Below, in pieces: positions 11,146-31,257 of a stretch of 43,053 nt of DNA. Source of the stretch: Nanobdellota archaeon (GTDB lineage Archaea > Aenigmatarchaeota > Aenigmatarchaeia > QMZP01); NCBI GenBank assembly GCA_018816245.1, contig JAHIVW010000006.1:65647-108699 (forward strand), read 5' to 3'. The stretch's first letter is position 1. Each line of letters starts with the position of its first letter. Below the pieces are notes generated by a model. That model made no database searches, was not told the DNA's origin, and saw only the letters and a program-made list of their open reading frames with translations. The position numbers and the translations under genes are program-made.

Positions 11146-11148
11146 TCA
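11007..11148. repeat. Direct repeat, copy B (142 bp)
   Basis: Partner of 9886-10028, about 1.12 kb away in the same orientation. Its right edge coincides with the stop codon of the small minus-strand gene at 11146-11271. Confidence 0.8.
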
Positions 11149-11271: not shown

Positions 11272-11272
11272 C

Positions 11273-11539: not shown

Positions 11540-11714
11540 GAGGTGCGGTTCGTACCTGGGTTGATCACCCTTCCGAGCATGACGTGCCCGGCATGCATCT
11601 ACCGGATCGCCTGTTCCGATACCTTTATTTGCACGCGTCACCAAGGGAAGGCACCGCGACTCGGTTGGGCGGCGTGGGCAAAGCACGCGCCAGGGACGGC
11701 GGTTTGTCCGGTGC
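11540..11714. other. Right end of the element, no clear gene
   Basis: It contains an AT-rich spot (CCTTTATTTG, 11621-11630) that could be a minus-strand TATA element for the coiled-coil gene about 85 bp away, then GC-rich sequence up to the right repeat. No convincing ORF is seen. Confidence 0.35.
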
Positions 11715-12499: not shown

Positions 12500-12951
12500 G
12501 CTGGTTCTCCTTCAAAATGCAGGGTCATGTCCTCACTTTGCCTGTTGCGTTCCGGAACTGCGGAAAATAACCGCTTTTTGCCGTGCAGAACACTCACTGC
12601 ATTACCTTCTCGCACTAACTCTGATAAATATTCACTTGCTCGCGCGCGCGAAAGGCCCACAAGCTCACCCAACGAGGCAGCATCAATCCCCGGATTCTCT
12701 GCTAAGGTGGCCACAACATCCTCCCGGACCCTCACTTTCCGCTTCCGAACACCATCTTCTGGCCTCGACATGAGCACGGCAACGGCCGCTTGAAGCTCAC
12801 TTATCTGCTTTGTTACCTGTGTCAACGCATCCCACACATTTGACCCGGCCTCACTCCCTTCTTCTCGGGCTGGCGCGAACTCATCGGCTTGCTCGATATG
12901 GGTTTTGAGATTTGACAAGAACAAGCGGTTCGAATGCCACAGCTGACGCAT
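12496..12951 (-). CDS. Winged-helix regulator with N-terminal coiled coil
   Basis: A 151-residue protein. A helical region rich in Glu, Ala and Gln (about residues 35-62, ending QISELQAAVAVLMSR) precedes a basic linker (RKRKVRVRED) and a winged helix-turn-helix domain (about 75-130). The likely recognition helix is LSRARASEYLSELVREGNAV and the wing is VLHGKKRLFS. GGATGG precedes the ATG. It is coupled by ATGA overlap to the MinD-type ATPase, resembling ParA/ParB-like or regulator/ATPase pairs. DNA binding is well supported; the target is unknown, but the palindrome-rich gap just upstream is the obvious candidate. Confidence 0.72.
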   Translation of the reverse strand: MRQLWHSNRLFLSNLKTHIEQADEFAPAREEGSEAGSNVWDALTQVTKQISELQAAVAVLMSRPEDGVRKRKVRVREDVVATLAENPGIDAASLGELVGLSRARASEYLSELVREGNAVSVLHGKKRLFSAVPERNRQSEDMTLHFEGEPA

Positions 12952-13796: not shown

Positions 13797-14549
13797 TTAG
13801 TGTTTGAGGGAATCACTGATCCAGTCAATCATATCCTGTAGCAAGGCTGCAAAGCCTGTCTCGCGTCGGAGTTCATGTCTCGAAAGACTCACACTGCTCC
13901 CATTATGAGAAACAATAGCAAAAGTGAGATTAACTGGTCTGAAGATGCCAGGGTCGTACCCAAGATAAACCGTGCTCCGCTCTCCTGCTTCAAGGGGGTC
14001 AATTTCTGCCTGCTCAATAATCCATCCCAAAGGGACATTAACAGGAAGCAAGATTGCCCCTGAAGTTGCTTCCTTACTTTCAACCTCGATCCGAATGACG
14101 TTGTCTCGCGTTCTGACTCGTCGTATCATGAAGTTGTCTTTCGTAGATGACCCTTCTGACCCTTTAATAACAAATGGATCCTCTGTGACAACACTGAATG
14201 CATAATTTACGCTTAGTTGACCGGAGAATGTCCCATTCCTGTTTGCTGGATACCAGTAGAGACGCTGGAGCTGTTGTTCCCCAGCGACAAGCGGCAATTC
14301 CTTACCCCACGCGTCGAATCGATACTGATCTGGACCAGTAATGACGAGATGAGGGCGTGCCCGATAGCCGATACTACCGATATTCTGAAGTTCTACTACT
14401 GCCATCCAAAGGGTTGGCACCTGCAATTCAGGAAAGGTATGAACCCGCAGATCGATGGTTTCCAGAACAGAAACAGAGACCTGCAACCCGCTAACAAGGG
14501 GAAGCAAAGCACAAACCCCAAGCATGAATACAAGAAAGAACACCTTCAT
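13797..14549 (-). CDS. Secreted beta-rich surface protein
   Basis: About 250 residues. The ATG at 14549 gives a clean signal peptide (MKVFFLVFMLGVCALLPLVSG) and lies 4 bp after the stop of the upstream gene. A longer start at 14585 would put a Cys-rich stretch before the signal. The mature part has the alternating hydrophobic pattern of Ig-like or sandwich domains (VELQNIGSIGYRARPHLVIT) and ends with an amphipathic helix (ALLQDMIDWISDSLK). A few Asn-X-Ser/Thr sites suggest glycosylation. It is the last gene of a three-gene minus-strand surface operon. No family is recognised. Confidence 0.7.
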   Translation of the reverse strand: MKVFFLVFMLGVCALLPLVSGLQVSVSVLETIDLRVHTFPELQVPTLWMAVVELQNIGSIGYRARPHLVITGPDQYRFDAWGKELPLVAGEQQLQRLYWYPANRNGTFSGQLSVNYAFSVVTEDPFVIKGSEGSSTKDNFMIRRVRTRDNVIRIEVESKEATSGAILLPVNVPLGWIIEQAEIDPLEAGERSTVYLGYDPGIFRPVNLTFAIVSHNGSSVSLSRHELRRETGFAALLQDMIDWISDSLKH

Positions 14550-14553
14550 ACCA

Positions 14554-15060
14554 TCACAGCAGAGGAAGCACCCCTTCAAGCGCACTGAACCGAGGAATTA
14601 CCACTCGGACACTAATTGTCCCGGAATAATTTCCTGACACTGCTCCTTTGGCATCAAGGGTAAGGGAAATATTCTTACTCAACCCCGGGCCGATAAGGAA
14701 ATCTTCGGGGAGGATGAGGTACGGTGAAATATTCCCGAAAGCGAACAACTGCGCCTTCACCATCACGTCATTTGGATTCTCGAATTCGATGCCCCGTGTT
14801 GCGGATTCATTCGGTTCAAATCCTCCAAAGTTCAGATTCCACCTGTCCACGGTGACCTCAATCGTCCGGTTCCCCACTGTTGAAGCGAACAACGTCACGT
14901 TCGTCGGGTAATGGGTCGTCTCTGTTGAGAAGAGGAAGAACTCGTACTGCTCAAATGGTTCTGTGGATACCCGTTGTGGAAGCAGTAACAACCCACTCCC
15001 AATGAAGAAGAGAATAACGATCGTGATACCGATCAGGAGAATCTCTGTTGTGTGTCCCAT
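14554..15060 (-). CDS. N-terminally anchored surface protein
   Basis: A 168-residue protein with one long hydrophobic helix at residues 5-28 (LLIGITIVILFFIGSGLLLL), then a beta-rich outer domain with several Asn-X-Ser/Thr sites (NVT, NRT, NES, NIS, NYS). The pattern of residues 80-150 (FENPNDVMVKAQLFAFGNIS, then LDAKGAVSGNYSGTISVRV) resembles an Ig/ASPM-like adhesion fold. It is the second gene in the operon, 4 bp from the next start. It may partner the large protein encoded just upstream. No family is assigned. Confidence 0.7.
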   Translation of the reverse strand: MGHTTEILLIGITIVILFFIGSGLLLLPQRVSTEPFEQYEFFLFSTETTHYPTNVTLFASTVGNRTIEVTVDRWNLNFGGFEPNESATRGIEFENPNDVMVKAQLFAFGNISPYLILPEDFLIGPGLSKNISLTLDAKGAVSGNYSGTISVRVVIPRFSALEGVLPLL

Positions 15061-15092
15061 TGTGTGTTAGTAGCAGGGTAAGCATTTTATAG

Positions 15093-17483
15093 TTAGCGGC
15101 GCGTCCGTCTGGTTACTCGCCGCTTGGTTCGCCGCGTCACCAACCGTTTTGTCCGTTTTTTGGGGAGGGACTCGCTTTCCACCTTCTGCCGAAGGCCGAT
15201 CAGCAAGTTCTGCATTTCTGGCGACTCCTTTCCTGCCCGCCGTCTCCGGAACAATGAAGCCAGGGTGAAGCTCCCAACGGCAATGATGACAAGGAGGGCA
15301 GTTTCAGATCCAACAGGGGCCACCAAGAAGTTCCCACTGAATAGTCCAAATGACGGCTGGTGAACAGATTCTGGCGGTGCCTCAGGAGAAATTGCGTTCT
15401 CAACCACCTCTGCGGCACTCAGGACGGTGAATCCGAACGACTGCTCACTCTTGATCAATCCGCTTGTTGCCCGGAAGGTGGCGGAATAGGTACTCTTGCT
15501 GGCATTTTCAGGAACAGTAAAGGTAACGATAACAGCCTGTTGATCCCCTACTACAAGCGAGCTCAGCGCCGTTTGTGAGAGGCTGTAGTACTCAGCAGGC
15601 ACCCCTTCGAGAGCAAGCTCAATATCAGCCAAATCAGTTTCCCCGTTATTCAGAACAAGAAATTCGATCCCCAGTTCCTTCCCTTGTTCGATCTTCACAC
15701 TTTCTGGGGCAAGCACTGAAAGCTTTTGCTTCTTGACCACTGTGATTGTGAAAGTTTCAGTTGCACTGAGATAAGGTTCCTTCGTGAAATACAGTGTCAC
15801 AGTGTAGGTTCCTTCGATTGTTGGCGAAGCCGCCTCAATCGAAAGCACGCCATCCTTATCCGTTGTTGTCGTTGGAAGTGTTGTTGTTCCAAGCGTTCCG
15901 GTCACGGTAACACCAGCAACTTGTTTCGGACTGCCTTTCTCGGACGTTGTCACAACACCGTTGATCCGGACAACATCCTTGATCGAGTAGGTTGTCTTGT
16001 CAGACGTCACTGTCGGCGTCAGGGAAACAGGAAACGCGACAATGAAGGCCGTTTCCTTGTTGGTCGTGAACGAAAGCTCGTTCTTTACCTTGTCAATATC
16101 AGCCTGAATTTCACTCCAGTCGCCGTTGCATTCCTCTTTTCCAAAATTCCACTCTGAACACCGGTAGACTGTGATTTCATCCTCGTCGGGAATCACGTTT
16201 TCATGGTAATCGAGCACAATCTCCGCTGTATTGAAGGTGATATCAGCTTCAAAGGCAACCAAAACGTCTGTTGCAAACCCTTCGATTGGAATACCGGTAC
16301 GCCATTGCACGTTGATCGGATCATCAAATTCAGAAAAGCTCGCATCGTCCAGGGTGATGACGACCTCGGGAAGCGAGACCGTGATATCATATGTTCCAGG
16401 AGGCAGTGTTCCAGTATAGGTCCCATCTGAGGCTGACGTGAAACTGAAGCTTCCTGTCGTACCGACAAACCCAATCGTTGCAGCCAAGGCACCACCATTC
16501 TTATCCAGGAACTCACCGCTGATAGGAATGGTTACAGAAATTTTCCTCGTATCGACCTTACTTGCGGAACCGTAGGTGATCGTTGTTTTGAAATCGATAT
16601 TGGAACCAGCGCTGACCGAAGGAATCTTTGCTTTGAATGTCGTTATCCCGGTACTTGAACTTAATTCAGAAAGCACCGCCTGCTGCCCGGCAACATGAAC
16701 CACAATATTCGTTGCATCGAGAACAAGCGCTTGCCCCTTTTCGAAGCTCTTTACTGTAACCGTAACAAGGTCCCCTGTTTTAACAATGTTCTTGTCAAGT
16801 GACAAGACAGACAAATCAATAACAGGAGAAACGGTCACAGGTGTTGTTACACTCACTGATCCCGTATCAAGGTGTCCTACAATCCCATAGGAATGTGTTC
16901 CTGCTAGAGGCGTTCCGACGATCAATTGAAACCATCCATCTATTGTGTATGGAGGGACAAGGAGCGTTTTGTTGACGCCGTTCTCAGTAACTGTGAAGGA
17001 AATATTTCCTGAGCTGAGCGTTTGATCAATCCCGTCTTTTTTCAGGTTTGCGGCAATGATCAGAGAGGTTGCATCGTCATAGACCGTCCCGGGAACCGTC
17101 ACAGCAAGGGTAAGCTCGGAGACAGCAAACGAGTCTTGCATCGAAATATTCTCGTCAAGCGAGTTCGTGCAGGAGATCGTCACATCATAGTGGCCGGTTT
17201 TGGTGAGGTAGGCAGCAGGAACAGTGAGTTTGTACTTCCCTAACTGAAGTGTGAATTCCTGATCAGGGAGTTCCACTCCAGGCGGTCCATCAATACTTGC
17301 AATGACGGTATCGATTGTCGTATTCGGGATCGTTTCCGTGCAGACAACAGAAAGTTGGGCGTTTCCACCAAGCCAGACAGTCTCTGGAACTGTGGCGTTC
17401 TCAAGAAGTGGTGTCGCCATGACCGACGGACTTATTATAAGAAGGAGCGCGGCACCTAGAAGGATAGCGCACACCCTCAGCAT
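15093..17483 (-). CDS. Large Ig/NEW3-type surface protein with basic cytosolic tail
   Basis: About 796 residues. A signal peptide (MLRVCAILLGAALLLIISPS) is followed by a series of beta-sandwich modules of about 90-120 residues. One has the carboxypeptidase-regulatory-like pattern GGALAATIGFVG then TYTGTLPPGTYDITVSL. The last, about residues 600-690, has the NEW3-like pattern VKIEQGKELGIEFLVLNNGE. A C-terminal helix (TALLVIIAVGSFTLASLF) is followed by a tail of about 50 residues ending in repeated Arg/Lys-Thr-Arg units. The start at 17483 has GGAGG at a suitable distance; the TTG at 17501 is less likely. Adhesion or scaffolding at the cell surface is inferred. The promoter is shared with the divergent gene at 17566. 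Confidence 0.8.
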   Translation of the reverse strand: MLRVCAILLGAALLLIISPSVMATPLLENATVPETVWLGGNAQLSVVCTETIPNTTIDTVIASIDGPPGVELPDQEFTLQLGKYKLTVPAAYLTKTGHYDVTISCTNSLDENISMQDSFAVSELTLAVTVPGTVYDDATSLIIAANLKKDGIDQTLSSGNISFTVTENGVNKTLLVPPYTIDGWFQLIVGTPLAGTHSYGIVGHLDTGSVSVTTPVTVSPVIDLSVLSLDKNIVKTGDLVTVTVKSFEKGQALVLDATNIVVHVAGQQAVLSELSSSTGITTFKAKIPSVSAGSNIDFKTTITYGSASKVDTRKISVTIPISGEFLDKNGGALAATIGFVGTTGSFSFTSASDGTYTGTLPPGTYDITVSLPEVVITLDDASFSEFDDPINVQWRTGIPIEGFATDVLVAFEADITFNTAEIVLDYHENVIPDEDEITVYRCSEWNFGKEECNGDWSEIQADIDKVKNELSFTTNKETAFIVAFPVSLTPTVTSDKTTYSIKDVVRINGVVTTSEKGSPKQVAGVTVTGTLGTTTLPTTTTDKDGVLSIEAASPTIEGTYTVTLYFTKEPYLSATETFTITVVKKQKLSVLAPESVKIEQGKELGIEFLVLNNGETDLADIELALEGVPAEYYSLSQTALSSLVVGDQQAVIVTFTVPENASKSTYSATFRATSGLIKSEQSFGFTVLSAAEVVENAISPEAPPESVHQPSFGLFSGNFLVAPVGSETALLVIIAVGSFTLASLFRRRRAGKESPEMQNLLIGLRQKVESESLPKKRTKRLVTRRTKRRVTRRTRR

Positions 17484-17532
17484 ACTCAATCGGTCCTCCA
17501 ACCCATAACGTCACACTATCATTGTTTTTGTC

Positions 17533-17541
17533 CTATATAAT
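17533..17541. promoter_or_regulatory. Shared bidirectional TATA box
   Basis: CTATATAAT with core TATATA centred at 17536.5. It lies 29.5 bp before the plus-strand ATG at 17566 (near-leaderless) and 53.5 bp from the minus-strand ATG at 17483, which has a leader with GGAGG. No second TATA box is seen in the gap. Confidence 0.5.
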
Positions 17542-17565
17542 CACATAATGAATAACTGTTACCAT

Positions 17566-18522
17566 ATGAGATTCCTCATTTTCTTTCTGTTCCTTGCTAT
17601 GCTTCCCACGGCAGCTGCCCAGTCTGCCCCACAAGTCGGGATTTCACCAACTGTCCTCGACCTCGGCAATCTTTCTCCAGGATCAGCCAAATTTACCACC
17701 CTTACCCTCATCAGCGAATCAAGCGACGACATTTTGGTCCAGCTCACAAAAAATCCTATTGATTCGACCTTTTTTGGGGGTCACATGGGCACGATCCTCT
17801 ATCCAAACAGTTCTGAAGAACCCATTCTTCCCTGGATCGAGTTCTTTGAGAATCCGGTGACACTTACCACTCTTGACAACACTATCGTTGTCGGAAGTGC
17901 CAGAATTAAGCGAGCAGCAGAAACCAACATTCTTGTCACGGTCCCTGAAGACAGCGAGCCCGGATATCATATCGCCTATATTCATGCGGCACCCAAAGTC
18001 ATCCCAACAGGCGGTTCACAAGCGATCATTATTGCTGCAGCCCAGATTCCTCTGATGTTCAATGTTCCCGGTGATGTTGTCCGGGAAGGACAGATTATTG
18101 ACATTGTTGCTGGAACCCTCACGGATGCTGGTGTCCCAATCAACATCTACTTCAAGAATACAGGGACGGTGACAATCCAGGCTCGAGCAACCGAGCTCGT
18201 TGTAAGCGACACAGAGACCCGCTTCGAGGGAACGTCAACATTCATGTTTGTCCCTCCTGGTAAAACTGTTGCGCTCGAGGCATCTGCACCTTCCGGTGTC
18301 CTTTCTGTAGGCACATATGACGTCTATGCATACGTGAGTTATGGGACAGGTGAGGACGCAATGGAGACGACCCTCTTTGTCGAGGCACCTGGTCCACTCT
18401 CCCAACCAACTCCTCTCTTCCTAGGCATCGAAGCCATTGAAGGTGTTCCCCTCTGGATTATCCTCCTCCTGGTTCTCATCGCGATCCTTATCTACCTCCA
18501 CCGGCGTGTACAAGAATTTTAA
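17566..18522 (+). CDS. Secreted Ig-like protein with C-terminal membrane anchor
   Basis: About 318 residues. Signal peptide MRFLIFFLFLAMLPTAAAQ, then beta-rich domains. The first (VGISPTVLDLGNLSPGSAKF) has the ASPM/MSP-like pattern common in archaeal surface proteins. A helix near the end (VPLWIILLLVLIAILIYLH) anchors it, leaving a short basic tail. I chose the ATG at 17566 because the TATA box at 17533-17541 would start transcription at about 17562, past the ATG at 17548. The MinD-type ATPase follows 23 bp downstream, suggesting one transcript and a functional link between surface protein and ATPase. Confidence 0.77.
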   Translation: MRFLIFFLFLAMLPTAAAQSAPQVGISPTVLDLGNLSPGSAKFTTLTLISESSDDILVQLTKNPIDSTFFGGHMGTILYPNSSEEPILPWIEFFENPVTLTTLDNTIVVGSARIKRAAETNILVTVPEDSEPGYHIAYIHAAPKVIPTGGSQAIIIAAAQIPLMFNVPGDVVREGQIIDIVAGTLTDAGVPINIYFKNTGTVTIQARATELVVSDTETRFEGTSTFMFVPPGKTVALEASAPSGVLSVGTYDVYAYVSYGTGEDAMETTLFVEAPGPLSQPTPLFLGIEAIEGVPLWIILLLVLIAILIYLHRRVQEF

Positions 18523-18545
18523 GGTAAGGTCCCAAGGGGAAGCGT

Positions 18546-19313
18546 ATGACGAGGATAATCGGGATTGTTTCTGCAAAAGGAGGTGTCGGGAAAACCACCG
18601 TGACAGCAAACCTCGGTGCAGCGCTCACCTCCTTCGGCAAACGAACCGCTGTTGTTGATTGCAACTTAACAAATCCTCATCTCGGCCTTATTCTCGGCCT
18701 CCTTCCGAATTGGAAAGTCACCCTGAATGACGTCATCAAAGGCCGCTCGAAACTGTCTGCAGCGGTCCATAATCATCCTTCTGGTCTTCAAGTCATCCCG
18801 GCTGCCTTCGAAGTTCGTGATATCCGTTCTCTCAACCTCCACCAACTCCGGAACCGTATTCGAGACACCTTTTCACGCCAACGAGTTGACTTTGTTATTC
18901 TCGATTCCTCTCCTGGCCTGTTTAATGAAGGCCTCCTTACCCTCCGGGCGTGCCAAGAGATTTACTTCGTTGCCACACCACATATGCCAGCAATCATTGA
19001 CATCACCAAGACAATCGCACTCTTGAAGAAGCGGGATGCTAAACCTTCAGGTATTATCCTGAACCGCGTCCGCAACAAACCATATGAGCTTCGGGACGAT
19101 GAGATTGAGCACTTCACCCATCTGCCGGTGCTGGCGCGCATCCCTGAAGATGAAAACGTCTTGAAAGCAACGAACTTCAAGGTGCCGGTTGTCACCCAGC
19201 ATCCCGGGAGCAAGGCAAGCGTTGCCCTTTCAAATTTTGCCGCAGATCTTGCGGGCATTCAGAAACCGACTCGTTTCTCGTTCTTTGGAAACCTATTCAG
19301 ACGAGGAAACTAG
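18546..19313 (+). CDS. MinD/ParA-family ATPase in the surface locus
   Basis: A 255-residue P-loop ATPase: deviant Walker A KGGVGKTTVTANLG at residues 11-24, DCNLTNPHLGLILGL at about 39-53, Walker B-like VDFVILDSSPGL near 116-127, and the family's ATPHMPAIIDITKTI. The C-terminal end (TRFSFFGNLFRRG) is a basic amphipathic helix like the membrane-targeting sequence of MinD. It is the second such ATPase here; the two share the fold but are clearly diverged. AAGGGGAAG precedes the ATG. Positioning of surface structures is inferred from family and location. Its TAG is interlocked with the TAG of the convergent beta-helix gene (CTAG, 19310-19313). Confidence 0.88.
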   Translation: MTRIIGIVSAKGGVGKTTVTANLGAALTSFGKRTAVVDCNLTNPHLGLILGLLPNWKVTLNDVIKGRSKLSAAVHNHPSGLQVIPAAFEVRDIRSLNLHQLRNRIRDTFSRQRVDFVILDSSPGLFNEGLLTLRACQEIYFVATPHMPAIIDITKTIALLKKRDAKPSGIILNRVRNKPYELRDDEIEHFTHLPVLARIPEDENVLKATNFKVPVVTQHPGSKASVALSNFAADLAGIQKPTRFSFFGNLFRRGN

Positions 19314-21892
19314 AATTTAAAGATTGGCGTTGCGTGGCAGAAGAGGCAATAGATATTGAGCTCAAAGTTCTGGATGTCAAATCCGTCGTGATTGTCTTCA
19401 ACCAACACGGAAACTGGATAGGTCCCAGGGCCAGAGGCAAACGGCTTCCACGAAACCTGGCCGTTTTGTTGTATTGTCATCCCCGGCGGTCCTTGCAGCA
19501 GGGTGTAAGTAAGCGGATCGTCGTTTGCGTCAAGGGTCTGTACCTTGTACTTGAACTTTTCGACGTTCGAAATCGTTGTCGTTGGCGTAGAAGTGATCGT
19601 TGGATAAGCATTCACCACCGGCGTTTCAAGGGGAAGATAGTCAGTATTTGTTCCTCCAGGAACGCCGGGTAAAATAATATACACATTGCTGCAGATATTA
19701 TTCACAGGATTCTGGCAATCATGGTCGTACCAGAAGTTCCCTTCGGTACTACTATTGAACTTGTTTGTTGTTGGTTGAATTGAATCTGCTCCCTGTTTGC
19801 TGTTTTCAATGAAGGCGTTCCGGTAAACAAGATCGTTGGCTTCAGATGAAAGCCGGATTCCAAATCCGTCATGGCTTGATCCCTGACAGAATTGACCAAC
19901 ATTATCCGTGAAGGTATTTGATCCGCCACCAATTGCTCGCATGCAAAACTGACTTCGCCGAATCTGGTTCCCGGAGATCATACTGTTTGTCACGCTTTCC
20001 AAATCGAGATTGAATCCCGTGTCTTCCCCGTTCCGGTCAAGGTAATTCGAAAGAACATTGGCATCAGCAACAGAGATGAGGTAGATCCCTTTGAAGATAT
20101 TATCCGTAATGGTATTCCCGTCAATCGTGATATTCGATCCACCGTCACCAAGAATTCCCGCTTCAGGTGAACTGGGATTTGTGCTCGTTCCGGTTTCTGT
20201 AATTAGGTTTCCAAGAAGCTGCGCGTCTGTTGCGCCGCTCAGGTCAAACCCATTCTTGAAGTTCCGGACAGCGATGTTCTTGACCGTGACCCCAGTGGTC
20301 CCGCTGAGGTCCAGTCCTGTTCCGTCTTGGAAGCCGACAAGAGTAGTTCCTTGACCATCCAAGACAGCACCATCTGCAAAGAAGATGCCGCTTGGTCGCA
20401 AGAACTCCTGGCTGTCTGCAATCAGTTGTCCTCGGACAGTACATCCATTCGGCAGCTGTGCAGTGCACGTGTCATCAGCATCAAGGACGACAACAGGGAC
20501 GACTGTCTGGTTCGCGAGTTCGAGGAAACTCGAGTCTCGCACGGTCACAGTCGCATAATAGGTTCCTGTATCAGTGAAGTCTGTATACCATTTCCAGCTC
20601 CCTGGACCGACTTCAACGAAGTTGGGATCATCAATCTCGTAGGTTAGGGGACCATTCTCGCTGACGACATTGACATCCAAGTCAACAATCTCCCCTTCAT
20701 TTACCGTGATCTGTTGTGGCACAGGATCGAACTGGGGAGGCTTGAGCCCAAAAACCAACTCAGGGGTAAGCGGCGAGTGATCAATCGAATTGATATCATG
20801 AACCATTTCTATGTCACACCGGAGATCCCCATTCGTATCAGGGCAACCTTCAAGAACGTCCGCATGATTGTCGTAAAAATTCCCCATATCACCTTCATTG
20901 AAATAATTGTCGTACTCATCGAAGACAGGCCCGTTTCGTAGGAAAATGTTGTCAGTGAATAACATTCCCCGTGACGGCTGTGGCTGTCCGGACTTCAGGA
21001 AGCTCTGGAAGTCATGAATGACAATCGATTGGTTATTGTCGGTCATGTTATTGGCGGAAACAGTATTGTTGGGGGAGTAGGCAATCTGAATGCCAATAAG
21101 ATTATTGGCAATGACATTCCCTTCAATCAAACTTCTCGTGACACCGGCAGCAAAATTGATTCCTACTCCACTGAAGGTCACCTGATTATTCCGGATGGTG
21201 TGATTCACAATCGGAAGCATATCAGGAGACGCACTTGCCTCAAGCCGGATTGCCGATCCCCGGCATTTGGTAATGGTGTTCCCTTCAATTATTGAGTCTC
21301 GAACACCGTAAATCATGTCAGCATACTGGACCACGATCCCGTCCTCAGCAGTGGTAATCCCGTTGCAGGTAATGCTATTATCTTTCACAAGCGCGTTTTT
21401 CGAATGAGCGATAGTGATCCCCTTCACACCAGAGGGACTAAAGACAATCGTATTGTTCGAAACGACGGTGCCTTTAATATAGGGAGGATAAGGATCCCCA
21501 TTGATATGGGTAACAATGATGCCCATATCAGATTCCATCAACGTATTATTCGTGAAGAGACCCCAGGATGAATTTTCCGCATCAATGGCATAGGTAAAGG
21601 ATATAAAATGACAGTTCTTAATCGTGATATTGTCATGACTTTTTACGACAATCCCCGCAAATAGTGCCGGTTGCGTCCCGAGAAGGGTTGCTCCATTACA
21701 ATCAATAACAAGGTCATTCGCTGCAACATACGTTCCATGAGGAATATAGTATGTTCCTGGATCCATGGTAACAGATTGAGTATATTCACACCAGTCAGCG
21801 GGGGTTTCATTACAAGAAACTGCCTGCGCAGTCGGCACAAGAAGAAGCCCGACAAGCAAAGCTGCCATGAGACCCCAGCGCATACCTCTCAT
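19310..21892 (-). CDS. Secreted parallel beta-helix (NosD/PbH1-type) surface protein
   Basis: An 860-residue protein with signal peptide MRGMRWGLMAALLVGLLLVP. Two blocks of right-handed parallel beta-helix repeats, about residues 50-340 and 490-730, show the repeated N-N/D-hydrophobic pattern (IEGNTITKCRGSAIRLEASA; ITIDGNTITDNIFKGIYLIS). Between them lies a cadherin/Ig-like module (about 395-470), and a second such module (VEKFKYKVQTLDANDDPLTY) lies near the C-terminus. The family includes NosD-like and carbohydrate-active or adhesive surface proteins. No catalytic residues can be named. There is no C-terminal anchor, so it is secreted or held by partners. A TATA-like CTTTATTAG (complement of 21915-21923) lies 27 bp before the ATG, supporting a leaderless start. 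Confidence 0.82.
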   Translation of the reverse strand: MRGMRWGLMAALLVGLLLVPTAQAVSCNETPADWCEYTQSVTMDPGTYYIPHGTYVAANDLVIDCNGATLLGTQPALFAGIVVKSHDNITIKNCHFISFTYAIDAENSSWGLFTNNTLMESDMGIIVTHINGDPYPPYIKGTVVSNNTIVFSPSGVKGITIAHSKNALVKDNSITCNGITTAEDGIVVQYADMIYGVRDSIIEGNTITKCRGSAIRLEASASPDMLPIVNHTIRNNQVTFSGVGINFAAGVTRSLIEGNVIANNLIGIQIAYSPNNTVSANNMTDNNQSIVIHDFQSFLKSGQPQPSRGMLFTDNIFLRNGPVFDEYDNYFNEGDMGNFYDNHADVLEGCPDTNGDLRCDIEMVHDINSIDHSPLTPELVFGLKPPQFDPVPQQITVNEGEIVDLDVNVVSENGPLTYEIDDPNFVEVGPGSWKWYTDFTDTGTYYATVTVRDSSFLELANQTVVPVVVLDADDTCTAQLPNGCTVRGQLIADSQEFLRPSGIFFADGAVLDGQGTTLVGFQDGTGLDLSGTTGVTVKNIAVRNFKNGFDLSGATDAQLLGNLITETGTSTNPSSPEAGILGDGGSNITIDGNTITDNIFKGIYLISVADANVLSNYLDRNGEDTGFNLDLESVTNSMISGNQIRRSQFCMRAIGGGSNTFTDNVGQFCQGSSHDGFGIRLSSEANDLVYRNAFIENSKQGADSIQPTTNKFNSSTEGNFWYDHDCQNPVNNICSNVYIILPGVPGGTNTDYLPLETPVVNAYPTITSTPTTTISNVEKFKYKVQTLDANDDPLTYTLLQGPPGMTIQQNGQVSWKPFASGPGTYPVSVLVEDNHDGFDIQNFELNIYCLFCHATPIFKF

Positions 21893-21935
21893 ATGTAGAA
21901 TAGAGTAAGGAAGACTAATAAAGAAATTTGACCAC

Positions 21936-21944
21936 CTTTAAGAG
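21936..21944 (+). promoter_or_regulatory. TATA box for the giant LamG-like protein gene
   Basis: CTTTAAGAG, centred about 37 bp before the ATG at 21977, predicts a short leader. The divergent beta-helix gene appears to use a separate TATA element at 21915-21923, so this gap holds two promoters back to back. Confidence 0.4.
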
Positions 21945-21976
21945 CTGTTTTTATTCCTTCCTTCGGGTAGTATGAC

Positions 21977-24900
21977 ATGCGAACTTGGGGGCTTCTGGCA
22001 CTCCTTCTTGGCCTGATCATCCTTGGAACACAGGGCTCTTCCCAGCAGGGCTTCGATATCTCAATTGACCCGGTCTCACCTTCTGTCGGTTCCCCGTTCA
22101 TTATCACGATTCACGGCTCACCGGAGACCACTTTTGACCTATCTATTTTCTCATCTCAGGAGAACCTCGTTTTCCCTTCGGCTCCACAACCCTGGGAAAC
22201 CGACCTTGGAGGAAGTTACAACATTCTTGTTCCTGGTATTGATGATGAGGGATCGTATGAAATCCGCCTCTCTGCAGCAGGAACCCTCTATACAAAATCT
22301 TTCACACTCGGGGATTCGGTCTCCGAAGAAGAGAACCCACATGTTCCCAAAGTCACCACAACAAGAGACGCGCAGAGCGAAATCACCTGCGTCGGCAATG
22401 ACTGTACAGGCAGGTTCTATTCTGCTCCCCGTTTCTACGAGGAAAATGGTGAATGGATTCCCCTTAATTTTTCCTTTGGTACAACAAACTGCCTTGCTGG
22501 GTACACCTACTGCCAGCCTGTCAACAATTATTACAAAGCGCACGTCAAACCTATCTTCTCGGAAGACAACATCGCTTTGACGACCAATAACCGGACATTC
22601 AGCATGACGCTTAAGAGCGTCGGATCTCCGACGGCACCGCTTCATGCTGTTGTTCCGCAGATCAATGACAATCAAGTTCTATATAAAAACATTACCCCAT
22701 TCGTTGATCTTCTCTATACCTATCAAATAGACACCTTCAAAGAAACAATCGTTATCAATGACCCAAGCATTTTTGAAACGATACCAGAAAAAGATGTTCT
22801 TATAACATTTACCTTGAAAGGGTCGGAGTCTTCTCCGTTCCTCCTCCTCCAACCGTTTGCCCTTGACGGGAATGATTCGGTTCTTTTCCCAACCCAAACA
22901 CAAACTCCAGCCGGCACAGAAACAGTAACCTACACCATGCGCTTCCCCCGGTCGTGGTTTACTGATCCTCAGCGGATCTATCCCATTCTCATTGACCCAA
23001 GTGTGACAATTAACAATGGGAACATTACCAGCGATCTCCGTATCTATAAGAATATGGGTTCTATCCCCCCCCTCTATATTCGTACTGATGATGCGTACCT
23101 TGCTGTTGGTCGCCAACAAATAAAACAAGGTTTTTTCTATTGGACTTATATGCATCGTTCTGTTGTCGAATTTAATGTTACCGGAATCCCACGAGGTGCA
23201 AACATTACGGAAATCAATCTGACCCTCTGGCACAAACAGACTGGCAATGCCGCCAATCAAGATTTCACAGTCATGGAAATTGAGGGCGAAAGTTCAACGT
23301 ATCCAAGTCAGAACCCAACGTGTCAAGGAAACTGCTTATACTGGGGAGACATGGGAAACGGTTCCGTCTACAACACCACACAGGACTACAACGGCGGTAT
23401 TGGTATAAGTTATACCATCATGATAAACCAAAACGCCACAGACAATCTTACCGAGCGCCGTTATTCGCAAGGTGAAGATTGGTTTGGTTTTGGATTGTAC
23501 AGTCAAGGAGGAGAAGCAGACTCAACGTCACTAACATCCGAAAAACAATGGTACAGTACTGGAAACGCGAATGATACATTACATCCGTCAATGGACGTGA
23601 GCTGGACACAAATTGACCCGGACATCGCTCTCATCGATCCACAGAATGGCGCATCCTTCAGTTTCATCAAAGAGACCATGAACCTCAGTTTTGACTTCAC
23701 AGATAACGAGAATGAACTTCAGTGGATTGAGGTATTCGCAAGCAATGAGACAACAGAACCATTGGGCGAGAGTCTTGTCTTTCTTGCGAGGAATGTCAGC
23801 AAAGATTCGCGACTCAATTATAGCTATACTGCACCACTTTGGAAAAAAGACCCGTATACAACATTATTGTTACATTTCGATAACCGAACAGCGTATGCAG
23901 AAAATGATACGCTTGTGTATGATTTTTCGGGGAGCGGCAACAATGCAACACCATCACCGGGATCAGCAGCATTTCAACCAACCTTCAACCACTCTGCCGG
24001 GAAATTCGCTGGATCATTCGAATTCGATGGAACAGACGACAACTTGACGCTTGGTGATGCGGATAGTCTGACCGGTCTCCCGGCAACCTACATGTTTTGG
24101 ATCAAACTCTTTGAGGGAGATACACAAAACCATGGCATCCTTGAGAAGTTGTCCGGTTCAACTGGCATTGCGATCAGGCAAGAACTCGGGACATTTACAG
24201 TCTATGTTGATTCTGCAACTGCTTTACATAGCATTCCCAGATTTCTCCCTTCTGTTGATACGTGGTATCATGTTGCCGTTGTGATCAATACAACAGGAGG
24301 TATTTCTGTCTACCGAGACGGGATCTTCAATTCCAGTGGATCAGCAGCCGCTATGACAGATAACAACGCCGATTTTGTCATCGGCGGTGCCGGTACCAAC
24401 AGGCTTAATGGCACGATAGATGAACTCGTTATTCTCAACAGGACCTTATCGTCCGCAGAAATTCGTGACGCAGCCCGCCTTCCCTCAGGAGTCTACCATT
24501 GGTTTGTCAATGCAACAGACTTCCTCCAACCAAACAAGAGTGCTGTATACACCTTTACGATTAACGTCACCCCTGAAGTGACGATTGGGGGCATTGACAA
24601 CGGATCCATCTTTTCCAGCATTGGGAAGATTATCCCTGGCGCATTTGGTGATGACGATCAAAAGGAAAACATCTCTGTTTCCTTTTACGGCGGCCGTTCA
24701 GCAACGCCGGATACGCACGATCTCCTCTGGCGGCAAACCGTTACCAACGGGACAAACGTAACCTTTAACTGGTCAGTACCGTTGACCCTGAACGACAGCA
24801 GCACGATCTTCCTGTACCATTTCGACAACCGATCTGATTTGGGCGAAGATCATAACGAGCAAACGAAAACAACTTCCAGAATTTACGACTTTACCTACCA

Positions 24901-26371
24901 CAACCTGAATGGGAGCGGGGAGATGCTCACGTTCAATCATACTGGTGGTGTTCTTGGAGGCGGATTCATGCTCAATTCAACAACAGGTGCATCGGCACCG
25001 CGTATCCGAGTCGGTGGTGCAGGCGCAGAAACCCAGCTCGATTTCGGAACAAATGATAACTTCACAATGATGGCTTGGATAAAACTTTCCGGTTCCCAGG
25101 GAGTGGACGGCATTGTTTATGCACGATTTAATTTATACGCTAATCAAGGGTATGCTTTTGGATACGATGATGCGACAGGACGAATTCTCTGTACAACAGT
25201 AATTACATCCAATAATACCGTTGTGAATGGGATAACGCCCATTAACGATAGTGCATGGCACCTTATCGCCTGTACAAGGAATATCAGCGGCTCCGGGGCA
25301 ATTATCCGCGTGTATCTTGACGGCGTTCTTGACGGTGAGAATACAAGTGCGACGATGGCAGACGTTTCATCGACCGGACAAGGATACATCGGGACACTCA
25401 GCGTTTACGGTATGTACTTGAATTCAGGAAACGGAACCCTTGACGAAGTCTCTCTCTGGAACAGGACCTTGACCCAACAGGAGATTCGCAACCATTACCG
25501 TCTGAACAGCGGTCACTGGTACTGGCACGCGAACACAACGGACTGGAACGAGAGTTCCCAGGACAAGTCGGAAGTCCGCGAGTTTACGATTGCACCGGCC
25601 ATGAACGTCAATCTCACCTTCCCGCAAATCGATCCCGTAACTGTTGTCCTTAATACCACCTTCAGAGTAAATGCAACAATACTCTGCGGTGGTGGTGATT
25701 GTGATGCAGTCACTGGGGCGCTCCGATATAACAATTCAATATCCTTACCTGATACAAACATCAGTACAACTTTTGCTGATATTCCTTTCCATACAGCAGA
25801 AAGCAACCCACAACTTTGCGGTCTTAACCCGCTCCCTGAACTTGTTCAATGCAACCTTACATGGCTTGTTAATGCAACTGGTGATGTCGGTTCGAATTAC
25901 GAGATCGGAGCCATGCTGAATTCAAACCTTAGCGATGTTCCTGACAATTTCACGGAGAACATCACAGTAAATATTGTGAGCTGCATTCTGTCGACATCAC
26001 TTGGGTTCAGTACCATTGAATTTGATAATACTTCGGTGGGAACAATTACAAACGCAACAGGAAACAACCAAACGTTGTATAATCTTACCATTGAAGACAC
26101 AACGACGTGTGACACCAACATACTGATTAACGCAACCAATGTTGTCCATACAACCATTGCTGACTATGTTATCACCCCTGCCAACATTACCTTTAACAAT
26201 GTTAGCAACGATCTAGCGACAGGAACAAACCTCTCATTAGTAAGCACCATCGTGAACACGAGCGTTGCTGTCGGTTACAATCAAACAATGTATTTCTGGT
26301 TTACAACCCCACTTGGGATGCTCGCAGGTGAATACGAAGGAACAGTGAACATCATAACGGAGGAAGCATGA
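21977..26371 (+). CDS. Giant multidomain secreted protein with two LamG-like domains
   Basis: A 1464-residue protein. A signal peptide (MRTWGLLALLLGLIILGTQG) is followed by an Ig-like module and a domain of the 'RFYEENGEWIPLNF' type seen at the front of Rhs/DNRLRE proteins. Next is a DNRLRE/CBM96-like beta-sandwich (about residues 345-545: AYLAVGRQ, SVVEFNVTGIPRGANITEIN). Two concanavalin A/LamG-like domains follow at about 624-845 and 940-1190, each with the FEFDGTDDNLTLG- or GFMLNSTTG-type strand and ending GTIDELVILNRTLSSAEIR or GTLDEVSLWNRTLTQQEIR. The C-terminal about 270 residues are beta-rich, without an anchor. Dozens of Asn-X-Ser/Thr sites are present. Glycan or cell binding is the likely role. 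It is coupled by ATGA to the next gene. Confidence 0.85.
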   Translation: MRTWGLLALLLGLIILGTQGSSQQGFDISIDPVSPSVGSPFIITIHGSPETTFDLSIFSSQENLVFPSAPQPWETDLGGSYNILVPGIDDEGSYEIRLSAAGTLYTKSFTLGDSVSEEENPHVPKVTTTRDAQSEITCVGNDCTGRFYSAPRFYEENGEWIPLNFSFGTTNCLAGYTYCQPVNNYYKAHVKPIFSEDNIALTTNNRTFSMTLKSVGSPTAPLHAVVPQINDNQVLYKNITPFVDLLYTYQIDTFKETIVINDPSIFETIPEKDVLITFTLKGSESSPFLLLQPFALDGNDSVLFPTQTQTPAGTETVTYTMRFPRSWFTDPQRIYPILIDPSVTINNGNITSDLRIYKNMGSIPPLYIRTDDAYLAVGRQQIKQGFFYWTYMHRSVVEFNVTGIPRGANITEINLTLWHKQTGNAANQDFTVMEIEGESSTYPSQNPTCQGNCLYWGDMGNGSVYNTTQDYNGGIGISYTIMINQNATDNLTERRYSQGEDWFGFGLYSQGGEADSTSLTSEKQWYSTGNANDTLHPSMDVSWTQIDPDIALIDPQNGASFSFIKETMNLSFDFTDNENELQWIEVFASNETTEPLGESLVFLARNVSKDSRLNYSYTAPLWKKDPYTTLLLHFDNRTAYAENDTLVYDFSGSGNNATPSPGSAAFQPTFNHSAGKFAGSFEFDGTDDNLTLGDADSLTGLPATYMFWIKLFEGDTQNHGILEKLSGSTGIAIRQELGTFTVYVDSATALHSIPRFLPSVDTWYHVAVVINTTGGISVYRDGIFNSSGSAAAMTDNNADFVIGGAGTNRLNGTIDELVILNRTLSSAEIRDAARLPSGVYHWFVNATDFLQPNKSAVYTFTINVTPEVTIGGIDNGSIFSSIGKIIPGAFGDDDQKENISVSFYGGRSATPDTHDLLWRQTVTNGTNVTFNWSVPLTLNDSSTIFLYHFDNRSDLGEDHNEQTKTTSRIYDFTYHNLNGSGEMLTFNHTGGVLGGGFMLNSTTGASAPRIRVGGAGAETQLDFGTNDNFTMMAWIKLSGSQGVDGIVYARFNLYANQGYAFGYDDATGRILCTTVITSNNTVVNGITPINDSAWHLIACTRNISGSGAIIRVYLDGVLDGENTSATMADVSSTGQGYIGTLSVYGMYLNSGNGTLDEVSLWNRTLTQQEIRNHYRLNSGHWYWHANTTDWNESSQDKSEVREFTIAPAMNVNLTFPQIDPVTVVLNTTFRVNATILCGGGDCDAVTGALRYNNSISLPDTNISTTFADIPFHTAESNPQLCGLNPLPELVQCNLTWLVNATGDVGSNYEIGAMLNSNLSDVPDNFTENITVNIVSCILSTSLGFSTIEFDNTSVGTITNATGNNQTLYNLTIEDTTTCDTNILINATNVVHTTIADYVITPANITFNNVSNDLATGTNLSLVSTIVNTSVAVGYNQTMYFWFTTPLGMLAGEYEGTVNIITEEA

Positions 26372-26979
26372 AACCTCTCCTTTGCTCATTTTTTCTCACA
26401 ACACTCCTTCTCATATCGAGTGTTCAGGCCTTTGGCAGCGTCCAAAATACAAAAAACCTTTCCGTTGTCGCAGGAGAGAAAACATCATTCAATCTTTTGT
26501 TGTTTCCAACAAATGACGTTCTTGATCCCCTTGTTCGTTTCGAGGTCATCGGACCTGAGAATTGGGAGATCACGATCGATCCGTCACCACTCTCTCTCAA
26601 CCCGGAAACAGCAACAGAACATCTCTTGCTCAACGATGTCTCGTTACCGGTTTCAAAAACAACGATTACCGTTCATGTTCCCAAAGAAACCCTGCTTGGC
26701 ACCTATGTGCTCGCCGTCCGTGCGATCCAGGATCCTCAAGAAGGCGGCTTTGCTGTTGGGCAGGTAAGACTCTTCACAGTTGATGTGAACGTCATTGCGC
26801 CACCACCATTTTCTGATGTTGGCGAAACTGAGCCGGGAATGCTCCCCCCTATCGGATCACGAGGTGAACCATTCCCATTCCTCTCTGATATTGTTCAAGA
26901 GAAAAACATTCCTTCACTCATCTTTTTCATTGCCCTTGCGATCGTTTTAATTGCCGCCTGGCGAATATATAGATCATGA
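26368..26979 (+). CDS. Membrane-anchored surface protein of the adhesin operon
   Basis: A 203-residue protein with signal peptide MKPLLCSFFLTTLLLISSVQ, one beta-sandwich domain (LSVVAGEKTSFNLLLFPTND, then GPENWEITIDPSPLSL), a Pro-rich linker and a C-terminal helix (IPSLIFFIALAIVLIAAW) with a short basic tail. The NEW3-like pattern resembles the modules of its neighbours. It overlaps the giant protein and the following gene by ATGA on both sides, so the three are tightly coupled. It may provide the membrane anchor that the giant protein lacks (inference). Confidence 0.76.
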   Translation: MKPLLCSFFLTTLLLISSVQAFGSVQNTKNLSVVAGEKTSFNLLLFPTNDVLDPLVRFEVIGPENWEITIDPSPLSLNPETATEHLLLNDVSLPVSKTTITVHVPKETLLGTYVLAVRAIQDPQEGGFAVGQVRLFTVDVNVIAPPPFSDVGETEPGMLPPIGSRGEPFPFLSDIVQEKNIPSLIFFIALAIVLIAAWRIYRS

Positions 26980-28268
26980 ATCGGTATCCAGCAACCATCC
27001 TCGTCGTTCTCCTCGGCTTGTTGGTCATTGTTGGAATAACCGATGTTCGATTAACAGGACTCGCGTTTGATACAAACGCGATCTCAATAAACGTTGGTCC
27101 GAATACGAACGGTGAAATTGTTAATTTTTCTGTTACATCCGCGGTTGAAGTGGACAATGATGTTTCTTTACAAACAACATTCAACAACACGGGAAGTAGT
27201 GCCTATGCTATTATCATGTCAATCTTTGTGTTGAATGGCACAACAATTTACCAATCCTATATTGATACCAAAGTAACGCTCACTCCTGGTTCAACACGAA
27301 CCTTTTCTGCAACCTATACACCATCAGTTGCTGGGACGTATGAGGCTTTAACAAACGTGACGTTTAGCATCGCGAGTGTTGCATCGACCAATACAACCTT
27401 TACCGTGACGTCACCCGAACAAGAAGAACCACCAGGACCTGGTATTGTTGGAGGTGGCGGTGGTCCGTCACGTCCTCCAGGAAATGTGAGTGCTCCTGAA
27501 CAACCACAACCTGAGAAGGGACCTGAACTGACTCTTTCCTTCCCCCAAACAGTGACTCTTCCGCAAGGTGAAACAGCAAGCATCCTCGTTATCGCGAAAA
27601 ATCAAGGAAACGAACCCCTGACCAATCTCATCCTTTCTGCGAAAAGCGACGCGTTTGAAATTGATATCCTTCCCAGCAGGATCGCAACCTTAGCCGCGGG
27701 CGATGACGTTGTTTTCTTGGTCACCATTCAAGCACCGGCCTACCTTCCGGTAGGAACCTACTTTGTCGTCCTCGAGGCAACGGCAACTGAAGACAGCATC
27801 TCAGGAACCATGGCAGTGATCGTGTCGGACGAGCTGACGAAGCTTGAGCACGTCTGTAACCAAATCGAAGAACTGAACACCATCATTGGCGCCCTCACCG
27901 GGGAGATTGCCCAAGCAGCCCTTGAAGGAAAGGATATTGCTGAGGCGGACGCCCTCCTCAAGAAGGCGGCCATCCTCTTGAAGCAGGCAGGCGAGGCCTG
28001 TAGCGTGAGTGATGTCACAAACGCAGACCACCTTTTGAAAGAGGCCCGGGAAATCATTAGCGACGTGGTTGTGGCCATCGGAATCGCACAACCGCGCCTT
28101 GATTTTCTCTTCATCATCGTTTTCCTCCTGCTCGCAATCCTGATCGTACTTCTCCTCCACTTACTGTTGCTCCTCTGGCGGCGGCGCAAGAAAAAAGAGA
28201 AAAAGAAACCGAAAAAGAAGTCCCGGGTATATAAACGTCACCGGAACCGCCGGGTCAAACGGAGATAA
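26976..28268 (+). CDS. Surface protein with CARDB/NEW3-like domains, anchor and basic tail
   Basis: A 430-residue protein. An N-terminal signal/anchor (ATILVVLLGLLVIVGITDV) is followed by a CARDB-like domain (about residues 35-145), a Gly/Pro-rich linker (GIVGGGGGPSRPPG) and a NEW3-like domain (about 180-270, FPQTVTLPQGETASILVIAK). A helical section follows (about 280-360, with EADALLKKAAILLKQAGE), then a strong membrane helix (LDFLFIIVFLLLAILIVLLL) and a tail of about 35 residues that is almost all Lys and Arg. The outside adhesive part with a nucleic-acid-like basic inside tail matches the 15093-17483 protein. It is the last gene of the ATGA-coupled three-gene operon. Confidence 0.78.
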   Translation: MNRYPATILVVLLGLLVIVGITDVRLTGLAFDTNAISINVGPNTNGEIVNFSVTSAVEVDNDVSLQTTFNNTGSSAYAIIMSIFVLNGTTIYQSYIDTKVTLTPGSTRTFSATYTPSVAGTYEALTNVTFSIASVASTNTTFTVTSPEQEEPPGPGIVGGGGGPSRPPGNVSAPEQPQPEKGPELTLSFPQTVTLPQGETASILVIAKNQGNEPLTNLILSAKSDAFEIDILPSRIATLAAGDDVVFLVTIQAPAYLPVGTYFVVLEATATEDSISGTMAVIVSDELTKLEHVCNQIEELNTIIGALTGEIAQAALEGKDIAEADALLKKAAILLKQAGEACSVSDVTNADHLLKEAREIISDVVVAIGIAQPRLDFLFIIVFLLLAILIVLLLHLLLLLWRRRKKKEKKKPKKKSRVYKRHRNRRVKRR

Positions 28269-28317
28269 TATACTTTAATACCAACAACTATATGTTAGTA
28301 TATATTTGGTGGGTTGG

Positions 28318-29220
28318 ATGAAGGGACAACAGGCACGGATAGTATTTTATCTCTTTTTCATAGTTCTCTTTGCTGGTGCTACTATCCTCCCTTTCACTCA
28401 AGGTGCAACCACGACCGACAGTGCGACGGTCACACTCTCTATCTCAACATCGCTTGCGATTAGTGTTAATCCAGCAACCCTCGCCTTTGGAAACGTCAGT
28501 CCTGGAGGAGAATCTCCCGGTCAGCTTCAGCTAATTATCAAGAATACTGGTTCAAACAACATCAGTTTTGTCTTCATCACGAGCGGGTCATATTATGGAA
28601 CGAGCAAAAATCCCCTCCCAGGTGGTGACCCCAACTTGTACAATGCTTCGTCATTCGTCTTCCTCAGGAACTCGACAAATGCAACCTTCTTCCATGCAGG
28701 ACGTGTCGAGTGGAACCTTTCTGACATCCCGGGGAATGCGACCATGAACACGACGGCAGGCACCGAAGAACAGATTGTCGGATGGTACCGAAACAACACC
28801 GGTTGGTACCTTTTCCGTGTTGATAACGGTTCAACGGGCTGGTGTAATGCCTCAACAATTCACATGGTCATCAGCGAGGTAGAGGAAAATTCGACAAGCA
28901 TGTATAGGGATCTCTCTGTAGCTGCGAATGTGGTTACCGGAACGATTGAAAGCAACAACAGTGTCCTCACCGCAGTTACCTTTGCGAGCGGCCCACTTAA
29001 TGACAACTGTGTTTACATTGACAAAGATTGCAAAAACATTTTCATCACAAAATATGACCTGAATTCAAGTTATCCTGCTTGTTCTGTTGAGTCAGGAATC
29101 CGAAGCTCCAACTTTGCCCCAGGAGATGAGGAGACCGTCACCACCTTTGCCTCGGTTCCTGAAGGAGTCCCTGCTGGTGTCGCAGGAACCGGAACACTCA
29201 CGATTACCGCAAGTGAGTAA
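28318..29220 (+). CDS. Secreted glycoprotein-like surface protein
   Basis: About 300 residues. The ATG at 28318 is preceded by GGTGGGTTGG, a good ribosome binding site, and by a TATA-like CTTTAATACC (about 28272). The GTG at 28306 is an alternative. A signal peptide (VFYLFFIVLFAGATILPFTQ) is followed by an ASPM-like strand (SVNPATLAFGNVSPGGESPG) and a Thr/Ser/Asn-rich beta domain with about a dozen Asn-X-Ser/Thr sites and a few Cys. It has no C-terminal anchor. Similar modular exported proteins are common in archaeal surface loci, and I cannot name a function. Confidence 0.72.
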   Translation: MKGQQARIVFYLFFIVLFAGATILPFTQGATTTDSATVTLSISTSLAISVNPATLAFGNVSPGGESPGQLQLIIKNTGSNNISFVFITSGSYYGTSKNPLPGGDPNLYNASSFVFLRNSTNATFFHAGRVEWNLSDIPGNATMNTTAGTEEQIVGWYRNNTGWYLFRVDNGSTGWCNASTIHMVISEVEENSTSMYRDLSVAANVVTGTIESNNSVLTAVTFASGPLNDNCVYIDKDCKNIFITKYDLNSSYPACSVESGIRSSNFAPGDEETVTTFASVPEGVPAGVAGTGTLTITASE

Positions 29221-29230
29221 ACAGGTGACT

Positions 29231-29887
29231 ATGGTTGATATGCGCGTCCTTCCTGAGTACAAGAATTTTTGGCTCCTCTGGCTTTCAGCTGCGGGCTCTG
29301 CCCGGGGCCAGAGCTTGTTTGCTATCCAGAAATCCTGGGGAATCACCAGCAACTACCTCTACCACAATGAGCACCGGATAGGCAAACCACTTGTGCAGGC
29401 GATGATCGACAGCGGCTACCTCAATAAGGAGAAGGGTCGCATTTCCGCCCGCTTTGCGTGGATCCCGTCCTACGTTGAGGAAACCTTTGTCGCCGCAGAC
29501 GAACAGACGCATGGCATCCGCAAAGCATCAGCCCAGAGCTGGCAACAAATCCAACCATTCATCGAGCAACACCATGAGACTCTTTTTGGGAAAGAAGCAC
29601 TTCAGGCCCTCTACGGGTTCAACCCGGATGCCGTCAGACGAACGGGCTTTTCAATCTTTCACGATCTCTATCTTCTCGTGTTGCATGAAAACGTTGCGCG
29701 ATTTGCGAATAAATTCCAGGCACCTTTCATTCCCCGCTTGACCCACGCTCTCTTAGCTCATGCACCGCGTCGAGACCTCCTTTCCTATGCTCGAACGATT
29801 CGACAGGCGCTTCCTGAAAACACTGTGCCACGGATCCTTCCGAACGAACAGGCACTTGGGCAATTTCTGGCCCTGAGCCCGAGGTGA
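29231..29887 (+). CDS. Cytosolic protein with predicted winged-helix start, unknown role
   Basis: About 218 residues (ATG at 29231; the ATG at 29240 has better spacing to AGGTGA at 29223). There is no signal or membrane helix. Residues 10-70 (FWLLWLSAAG, IQKSWGITSNYLYHNEHRIG, MIDSGYLNKEKG) have the helix pattern of a winged HTH domain. The rest is helical with aromatic patches. A longer upstream frame exists inside the previous gene but reads out-of-frame surface-protein DNA, so I reject it. It could regulate the surface genes, but that is inference from position and fold only. Confidence 0.6.
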   Translation: MVDMRVLPEYKNFWLLWLSAAGSARGQSLFAIQKSWGITSNYLYHNEHRIGKPLVQAMIDSGYLNKEKGRISARFAWIPSYVEETFVAADEQTHGIRKASAQSWQQIQPFIEQHHETLFGKEALQALYGFNPDAVRRTGFSIFHDLYLLVLHENVARFANKFQAPFIPRLTHALLAHAPRRDLLSYARTIRQALPENTVPRILPNEQALGQFLALSPR

Positions 29888-30933: not shown

Positions 30934-31257
30934 ATGGCACGCCGAACGCGATCCGCCGGTGGGGAGGAAGCGATTGCTGTTATTCTGATGATTGTATTTT
31001 CAGTTTTATTGATTGGGAATGTTACGACACCTGTAGTTCCTGAAAACAATCTAGCCGGTGCGTTTACCATTCCTCAGGATACCTGTACCCGCCTTGAAGC
31101 TGTTACTCGATGTCCTGTGAAAAAATCATACCAGATGTTCTACGATTTCTGTGATGGGGATAAGAGGGGTTATCGCACTGCCTCAGGCACAATTCTCTAT
31201 GAAGATTGTATATCTGGATGCGCCAAGGGACGCTGTCTTATTTCTTCTTCAGAATAA
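30934..31257 (+). CDS. Small Cys-rich membrane-anchored protein
   Basis: A 107-residue protein with a basic start (MARRTRSAGG), a helix (AIAVILMIVFSVLLIGNV) and an outer domain with six Cys that could form three disulfides. The MARR(R/T) start followed by a helix is shared with the exported proteins at 34488 and 35332, so these may be one class of anchors. Its 3' end overlaps the convergent pilin-like gene by 20 bp. The function is unknown. Confidence 0.65.
   Translation: MARRTRSAGGEEAIAVILMIVFSVLLIGNVTTPVVPENNLAGAFTIPQDTCTRLEAVTRCPVKKSYQMFYDFCDGDKRGYRTASGTILYEDCISGCAKGRCLISSSE

Follow-up and report, generated by a model that had tools for sequence, protein, structure and literature searches.

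We analyzed a 43,053-nucleotide stretch (hereafter the window, whose numbering is used throughout) of the 886-kb genome of a Candidatus Aenigmatarchaeota (DPANN) archaeon, contig JAHIVW010000006.1, in which the genes at 13797–29220 encode surface proteins with immunoglobulin-like (Ig) domains and an ATPase of the MinD type. The open reading frames, strands and lengths agreed with a preliminary description of this region as a surface-protein locus, and that observation was confirmed. The cluster is larger than was seen then, as it includes a second MinD gene, MinD_A (11759–12499, minus strand), outside the range described. On the minus strand, S13797 (13797–14585; alignment A11) encodes an exported Ig-like protein, S14554 (14554–15060) a single HYDIN ASH/PapD-like Ig domain with an N-terminal anchor, and S15093 (15093–17501) a multi-Ig surface protein of ~800 amino acids (aa) with a C-terminal transmembrane (TM) segment and a basic cytoplasmic tail. 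On the plus strand, S17548 (17548–18522) encodes a signal peptide, two Ig-like domains and a C-terminal TM segment, and is followed by MinD_B (18546–19313). Beyond an 860-aa parallel beta-helix protein (19310–21892, minus strand), the plus strand carries the gene for a 1464-aa LamG protein (21977–26371), S26368 (26368–26979; a small Ig protein with a C-terminal TM segment), S26976 (26976–28268; a NEW3/CARDB-type Ig protein with a C-terminal TM segment and a long basic tail) and S28306 (28306–29220; an exported beta protein of ~300 aa, whose true start is perhaps the ATG at 28318).

Surface exposure, anchoring and translational coupling, as proposed earlier for these proteins, stood up to closer analysis. 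At their N-termini, nine products, rather than the eight counted previously, had a segment for export or anchoring (13797, 14554, 15093, 17548, 19310, 21977, 26368, 26976 and 28306), and four had a C-terminal TM segment with a basic tail (15093, 17548, 26368 and 26976). Exact 4-base ATGA overlaps joined 21977 to 26368 and 26368 to 26976. The 1464-aa protein, which had been labelled LamG/DNRLRE, matched Laminin_G_3 twice in Pfam, but its DNRLRE match was weak (21.9 bits, with the cut-off at 34). The 860-aa protein was recognized as a parallel beta-helix (Pfam NosD/Beta_helix); it had no homologue in any other cluster locus examined and was rejected as a conserved component, being a local insertion.

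The genes of this locus form a real, conserved DPANN cluster. The recurring order was S28306 / S17548-S14554-S13797-MinD_A-S15093-MinD_B / LamG adhesin-S26368-S26976, relative to which the window is rearranged, and the gene set was retained across genomes although gene order varied. A genome from the window genome's family (G017) carried, on one 12-kb contig, S28306, S15093, MinD_A, MinD_B, the adhesin, S26976, S13797, S14554 and S17548, arranged differently from the recurring order. Of 156 Aenigmatarchaeota genomes, about 35 had the cluster, which also occurred in Altiarchaeota- and Nanohaloarchaeota-type genomes, the Nanohaloarchaeota being a group with known obligate ectosymbionts; its gene pairs recurred in dozens of genera. 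S17548, the most diagnostic gene of the cluster, was present in 35 of the 156 Aenigmatarchaeota genomes. In the phyla to which an Altiarchaeales-labelled and a Nanohalarchaeota-labelled genome belong, 9 of 29 and 22 of 34 genomes, respectively, contained it. Among the 156 genomes, S15093 co-occurred in 32 of the 35 with S17548 (Fisher p = 8e-24) and S28306 in 33 of them (Fisher p = 2.5e-25), these p values being nominal because the genomes share ancestry, which the test ignores. S28306 was located apart from the cluster in G064, G065 and G067, still co-occurring with it. Full-length relatives of S15093 were recovered by its profile from about 38 of the 156 genomes. A pattern scan for S17548 across 84,980 species gave 38 loci, all of them DPANN where the group was named (Aenigmatarchaeota for the most part, with some Nanohaloarchaeota and Altiarchaeota and a single Micrarchaeota; a few were labelled just "archaeon"); the pattern was strict, so that missing it elsewhere is no proof of absence. 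S14554 and S13797 came after S17548 in 32 of the 33 loci with room for them. Adjacency together with genome co-occurrence ruled out a chance neighbourhood. No account of this cluster was found in the open-access literature searched, in which the system is undescribed.

The AlphaFold2 model of S17548 (predicted local distance difference test, pLDDT, 88.5) showed a pair of Ig-like domains with a helix at the C-terminus. Its best Foldseek match was WxLIP of Enterococcus faecium (9i25/9i1y; E = 1.3e-10, probability 1.00, TM-score 0.44–0.54); other Ig-fold proteins came next, the pilus chaperones CfaA, CsuC and FimC among them. By sequence, the window protein matched no family, including DUF916 and DUF3324 (Pfam), and 2 of 32 homologues matched WxLIP_HBD weakly, below the cut-off (best E = 0.0013). 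The S14554 profile matched the PapD-like ASH domain of HYDIN (E = 6e-9). Many S13797 orthologues have a C-terminal TM segment, which the window copy lacks.

S28306 is a candidate fibre subunit, whose orthologues adjoin the cluster in one to four tandem copies. The top Foldseek match of its AlphaFold2 model (pLDDT 80.7) was the TasA fibre 8aur (probability 0.93, E = 0.007) and the third was the cannula protein CanA, with further weak matches to the pilins CfaB, Caf1 and FimA. Just past the signal peptide, residues 42, 44, 46, 52 and 54 were V, I, L, F, M, Y or W in 97–100% of 31 homologues. DSSP assigned no strand at residues 27–51 of the monomer model, so the post-signal strand is unpaired there, as a donor strand would be. 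This alternating-hydrophobic segment (residues 40–54; 28423–28467, plus strand) is a candidate donor strand. Identification of S28306 as TasA by sequence was rejected, as a PDB profile search, Pfam and hhalign were all negative. The window genome had no match to the camelysin family PF12389, which occurred separately in 7 of the 156 genomes.

In the 1464-aa LamG protein, the C-terminal ~270 aa alone were conserved between clusters and the front was variable. This C-terminal domain (residues about 1190–1460; 25544–26356, plus strand) was common to proteins of 278–1871 aa in about 15 clusters. The protein is a candidate modular adhesin, whose constant C-terminus may serve as a dock and whose variable front may act as the reader.

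S15093 crosses the membrane according to its hydropathy profile. Its cytoplasmic tail is long (median 42 aa, charge +9.5), and that of S17548 is almost nil. The motif hydrophobic-xx-hydrophobic-[KR]-xx-hydrophobic, read as LIGLRQKV in the window (15180–15203, minus strand), occurred in 35 of 44 S15093 tails compared with 3.9 in shuffles, the pattern having been derived from those same 44 tails. It was also found in 12 of 14 tails gathered later, a few of them from loci seen before. This conserved basic motif is a candidate contact for the ATPases. The expectation that it would be lost wherever the linked MinD was lost was refuted, since 8 of 8 MinD-less Nanohaloarchaeota-type loci kept it.

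Both MinD products contain the deviant Walker A sequence KGGVGKT. The 18546 product, the ATPase noted earlier, passed the archaeal MinD model TIGR01969 (206.8 versus 201.75 bits), which upholds its MinD label; the 11759 product was below that cut-off (185.7 bits). A tree of 83 MinD proteins separated by gene context: clade A adjoins S13797/S15093, clade B adjoins S15093/adhesin, and clade C adjoins x29234 and giant Ig proteins, with a further MinD copy lacking surface neighbours. One window MinD belongs to clade A (11759) and one to clade B (18546). A MinD gene lay within 1 kb of S15093 in 25 of 27 Aenigmatarchaeota loci, mostly via a 4-base overlap. An order-wide search recovered close MinD_B orthologues from three genomes (55–57%), all beside relatives of the surface genes, along with many paralogues at 40%. 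In the Aenigmatarchaeota clusters, both window clades almost always adjoined S15093; there the ATPase is no accidental neighbour, nor does it occur apart from the surface genes in most relatives. The MinD tails are basic and hydrophobic (mean charge +3.3 over the last 16 residues). For the tail of the 18546 product, labelled membrane-targeting in the preliminary description, the helical moment did not exceed that of same-residue shuffles (p about 0.20). A C-terminal membrane-targeting helix is plausible. In the Altiarchaeota-type loci L142, L144 and L147, an additional gene of ~250–290 aa stands between S13797 and MinD_A, the L142 copy being a KaiC-family ATPase. Elsewhere in the order (L064, L070 and similar), MinD stands beside likely PheS/PheT and a CBS-domain protein, with no surface genes.

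Our preferred reading, held with modest confidence, is that these genes together specify a single conserved DPANN fibre/adhesin assembly on the cell surface, placed by MinD. S28306, exported by Sec, would repeat along an extracellular fibre or bundle, its copies linked by strand exchange. At the outer face, subunits would be held or passed on, with no usher, by membrane-bound PapD/WxLIP-like Ig proteins, namely S17548 and probably also S14554. The LamG-type protein would be a swappable adhesin at the fibre tip or flank, docking via its conserved C-terminal domain, and S26368, S26976 and S13797 would be anchors of the assembly. The membrane-spanning S15093 would tie the assembly through its tail motif to the MinD-type ATPases, which may set the place or number of assemblies; in Haloferax, MinD proteins place archaella and chemotaxis arrays (PMC11588486). 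Such a structure may adhere to other cells, and contact with a host is a guess. The earlier interpretation of the locus as a cell-contact apparatus with controlled placement is partly supported.

Several observations weigh against this reading. The cluster is patchy, and it also occurs outside known obligate symbionts, for example in Altiarchaeota-type genomes. The similarity of S28306 to TasA is weak even at the level of structure (E = 0.007, TM-score 0.27–0.34), and hhalign gave a probability of 3%; no homologue matched the Pfam camelysin family above the cut-off, 1 of 31 reaching E = 0.23. The amphipathic moments of the MinD tails were no better than those of shuffles. MinD was missing from 2 of the 27 S15093 loci, and the Nanohaloarchaeota-type clusters L184–L191 and L203 had none nearby, so that the linkage is strong but not universal; in that phylum, each of the 34 genomes has one or more MinD genes at other sites, and most have two to five. 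Retention of the tail motif without a linked MinD implies that MinD acts in trans or that the motif has another partner. The clusters with no MinD nearby weaken the case for obligatory control by a linked ATPase.

The Ig proteins might instead decorate or dock an archaeal type IV pilus, with MinD as the usual FleN/MinD pilus regulator, an accessory role that we regard as unlikely. The window does contain a pilus operon (459–6657), pilin-like genes lie directly upstream of the cluster in L112–L114/L149, one with a G/xxxxE site, and MinD is often present in archaeal pilus loci (PMC4858521). However, PilB in the window is 9 kb away from the cluster and the other cluster loci searched contained none, for which reason the locus was also rejected as a type IV pilus operon in its own right. 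Presence of the pilus ATPase family is uninformative, as it was found in 156 of 156 genomes and the cluster in about 35, and the signals of the core proteins, judged by eye, are Sec-type and not class III.

The many Ig repeats, the several TM anchors and the giant Ig proteins of ~1950 aa that adjoin some clusters could also point to a module of the cell envelope, that is, an Ig-rich S-layer-like lattice or outer scaffold whose insertion MinD coordinates with growth; moreover, the fibre is so far a predicted one. Yet a coat would be expected to be near universal, and S17548 was present in 35 of 156 genomes, while the variable adhesin front and the tandem S28306 copies suit an appendage better. 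We consider such a coat improbable. It is more doubtful still that MinD is merely carried along, serving division or other cargo and co-transcribed with the surface genes with no physical link. Genomes do hold several MinD paralogues and the Nanohaloarchaeota-type clusters manage without a linked copy, but adjacency in 25 of 27 loci across genera, the 4-base overlaps and clades that track surface context speak against it.

Other genes surround the cluster. A winged-helix protein (12496–12951, minus strand; HTH_24) has a 4-base overlap with MinD_A and may be a regulator; it is absent from most clusters, and similar genes lie near clade-A MinDs in L037, L042 and L046. Next to S28306, x29234 (29234–29887, plus strand) encodes the cytosolic partner in another MinD system, the third, which features giant proteins; it is a neighbour and not part of the core. 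Its context elsewhere (L054–L067) comprises clade-C MinD, a TM protein of ~90 aa, large coiled-coil proteins and Ig proteins of ~2000 aa, whose cytoplasmic tails of ~85 aa are strongly conserved. In L112–L114, L149 and L165, four pilin-like genes and the gene for a multi-TM protein of ~700 aa with no Pfam match immediately precede the cluster. Between the surface locus and PCNA, 31238–35973 encodes small proteins with N-terminal TM segments. A block of 64% GC at 7443–11700, in a genome of ~50% GC, starts at the exact 3' end of tRNA-Arg (7369–7442) and contains a recombinase-like fragment (7503–8054), an imperfect 102-base direct repeat and a ~70% match to bacterial plasmid restriction/SprT genes; it is either an integrated element or an assembly mis-join.

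The cluster gives a defined, testable gene set, from at least three DPANN lineages, for how these archaea may build and place cell-touching structures. A more specific form of our reading, which we put forward tentatively and hold to be doubtful as a whole, is a DPANN-specific usher-less donor-strand fibre system for cell–cell contact, with anchored WxLIP/PapD-like assemblers, TasA-like subunits, swappable adhesins and a base that a transmembrane protein ties, by a peptide on its cytoplasmic side, to position-choosing MinD ATPases. If our reading is right, the cluster would represent a third way of assembling fibres, alongside those of type IV and chaperone-usher pili, and the MinD proteins would have a new class of cargo.

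Among known systems, archaeal type IV pili with FleN/MinD (PMC4858521) resemble the cluster in having MinD, and in Altiarchaeota-type loci also the KaiC ATPase, beside surface genes, but the core subunits of the cluster are not prepilin-like and PilB is missing from the other cluster loci searched. TasA fibres and archaeal bundling pili (PMC9674648) are linked to it by the best, though weak, fold match of S28306 and by the candidate strand past its signal peptide, whereas S28306 falls outside PF12389, compares with TasA at 3% by profile, and had no other TasA-operon gene identified with it in the clusters. Chaperone-usher pili are similar in that S17548 is like FimC/CfaA/CsuC and S28306 weakly like CfaB, Caf1 and FimA; the DPANN system differs in having no outer membrane or usher and in the membrane anchor of S17548. 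WxL clusters of Gram-positive bacteria combine WxLIP with small and large WxL proteins, WxLIP itself consisting of a signal peptide, two Ig-like domains and a C-terminal TM segment (PMC10599100). S17548 has this same layout and fold, the genes are likewise clustered, and the large protein is likewise modular, with a constant C-terminal domain and a variable front. The DPANN cluster differs from them in its archaeal cells, in the lack of a WxL family among the Pfam matches of its proteins and of a DUF916/WxLIP_HBD match above the cut-off in S17548, and in what it adds, namely MinD, S14554, S15093 and the TasA-like protein.

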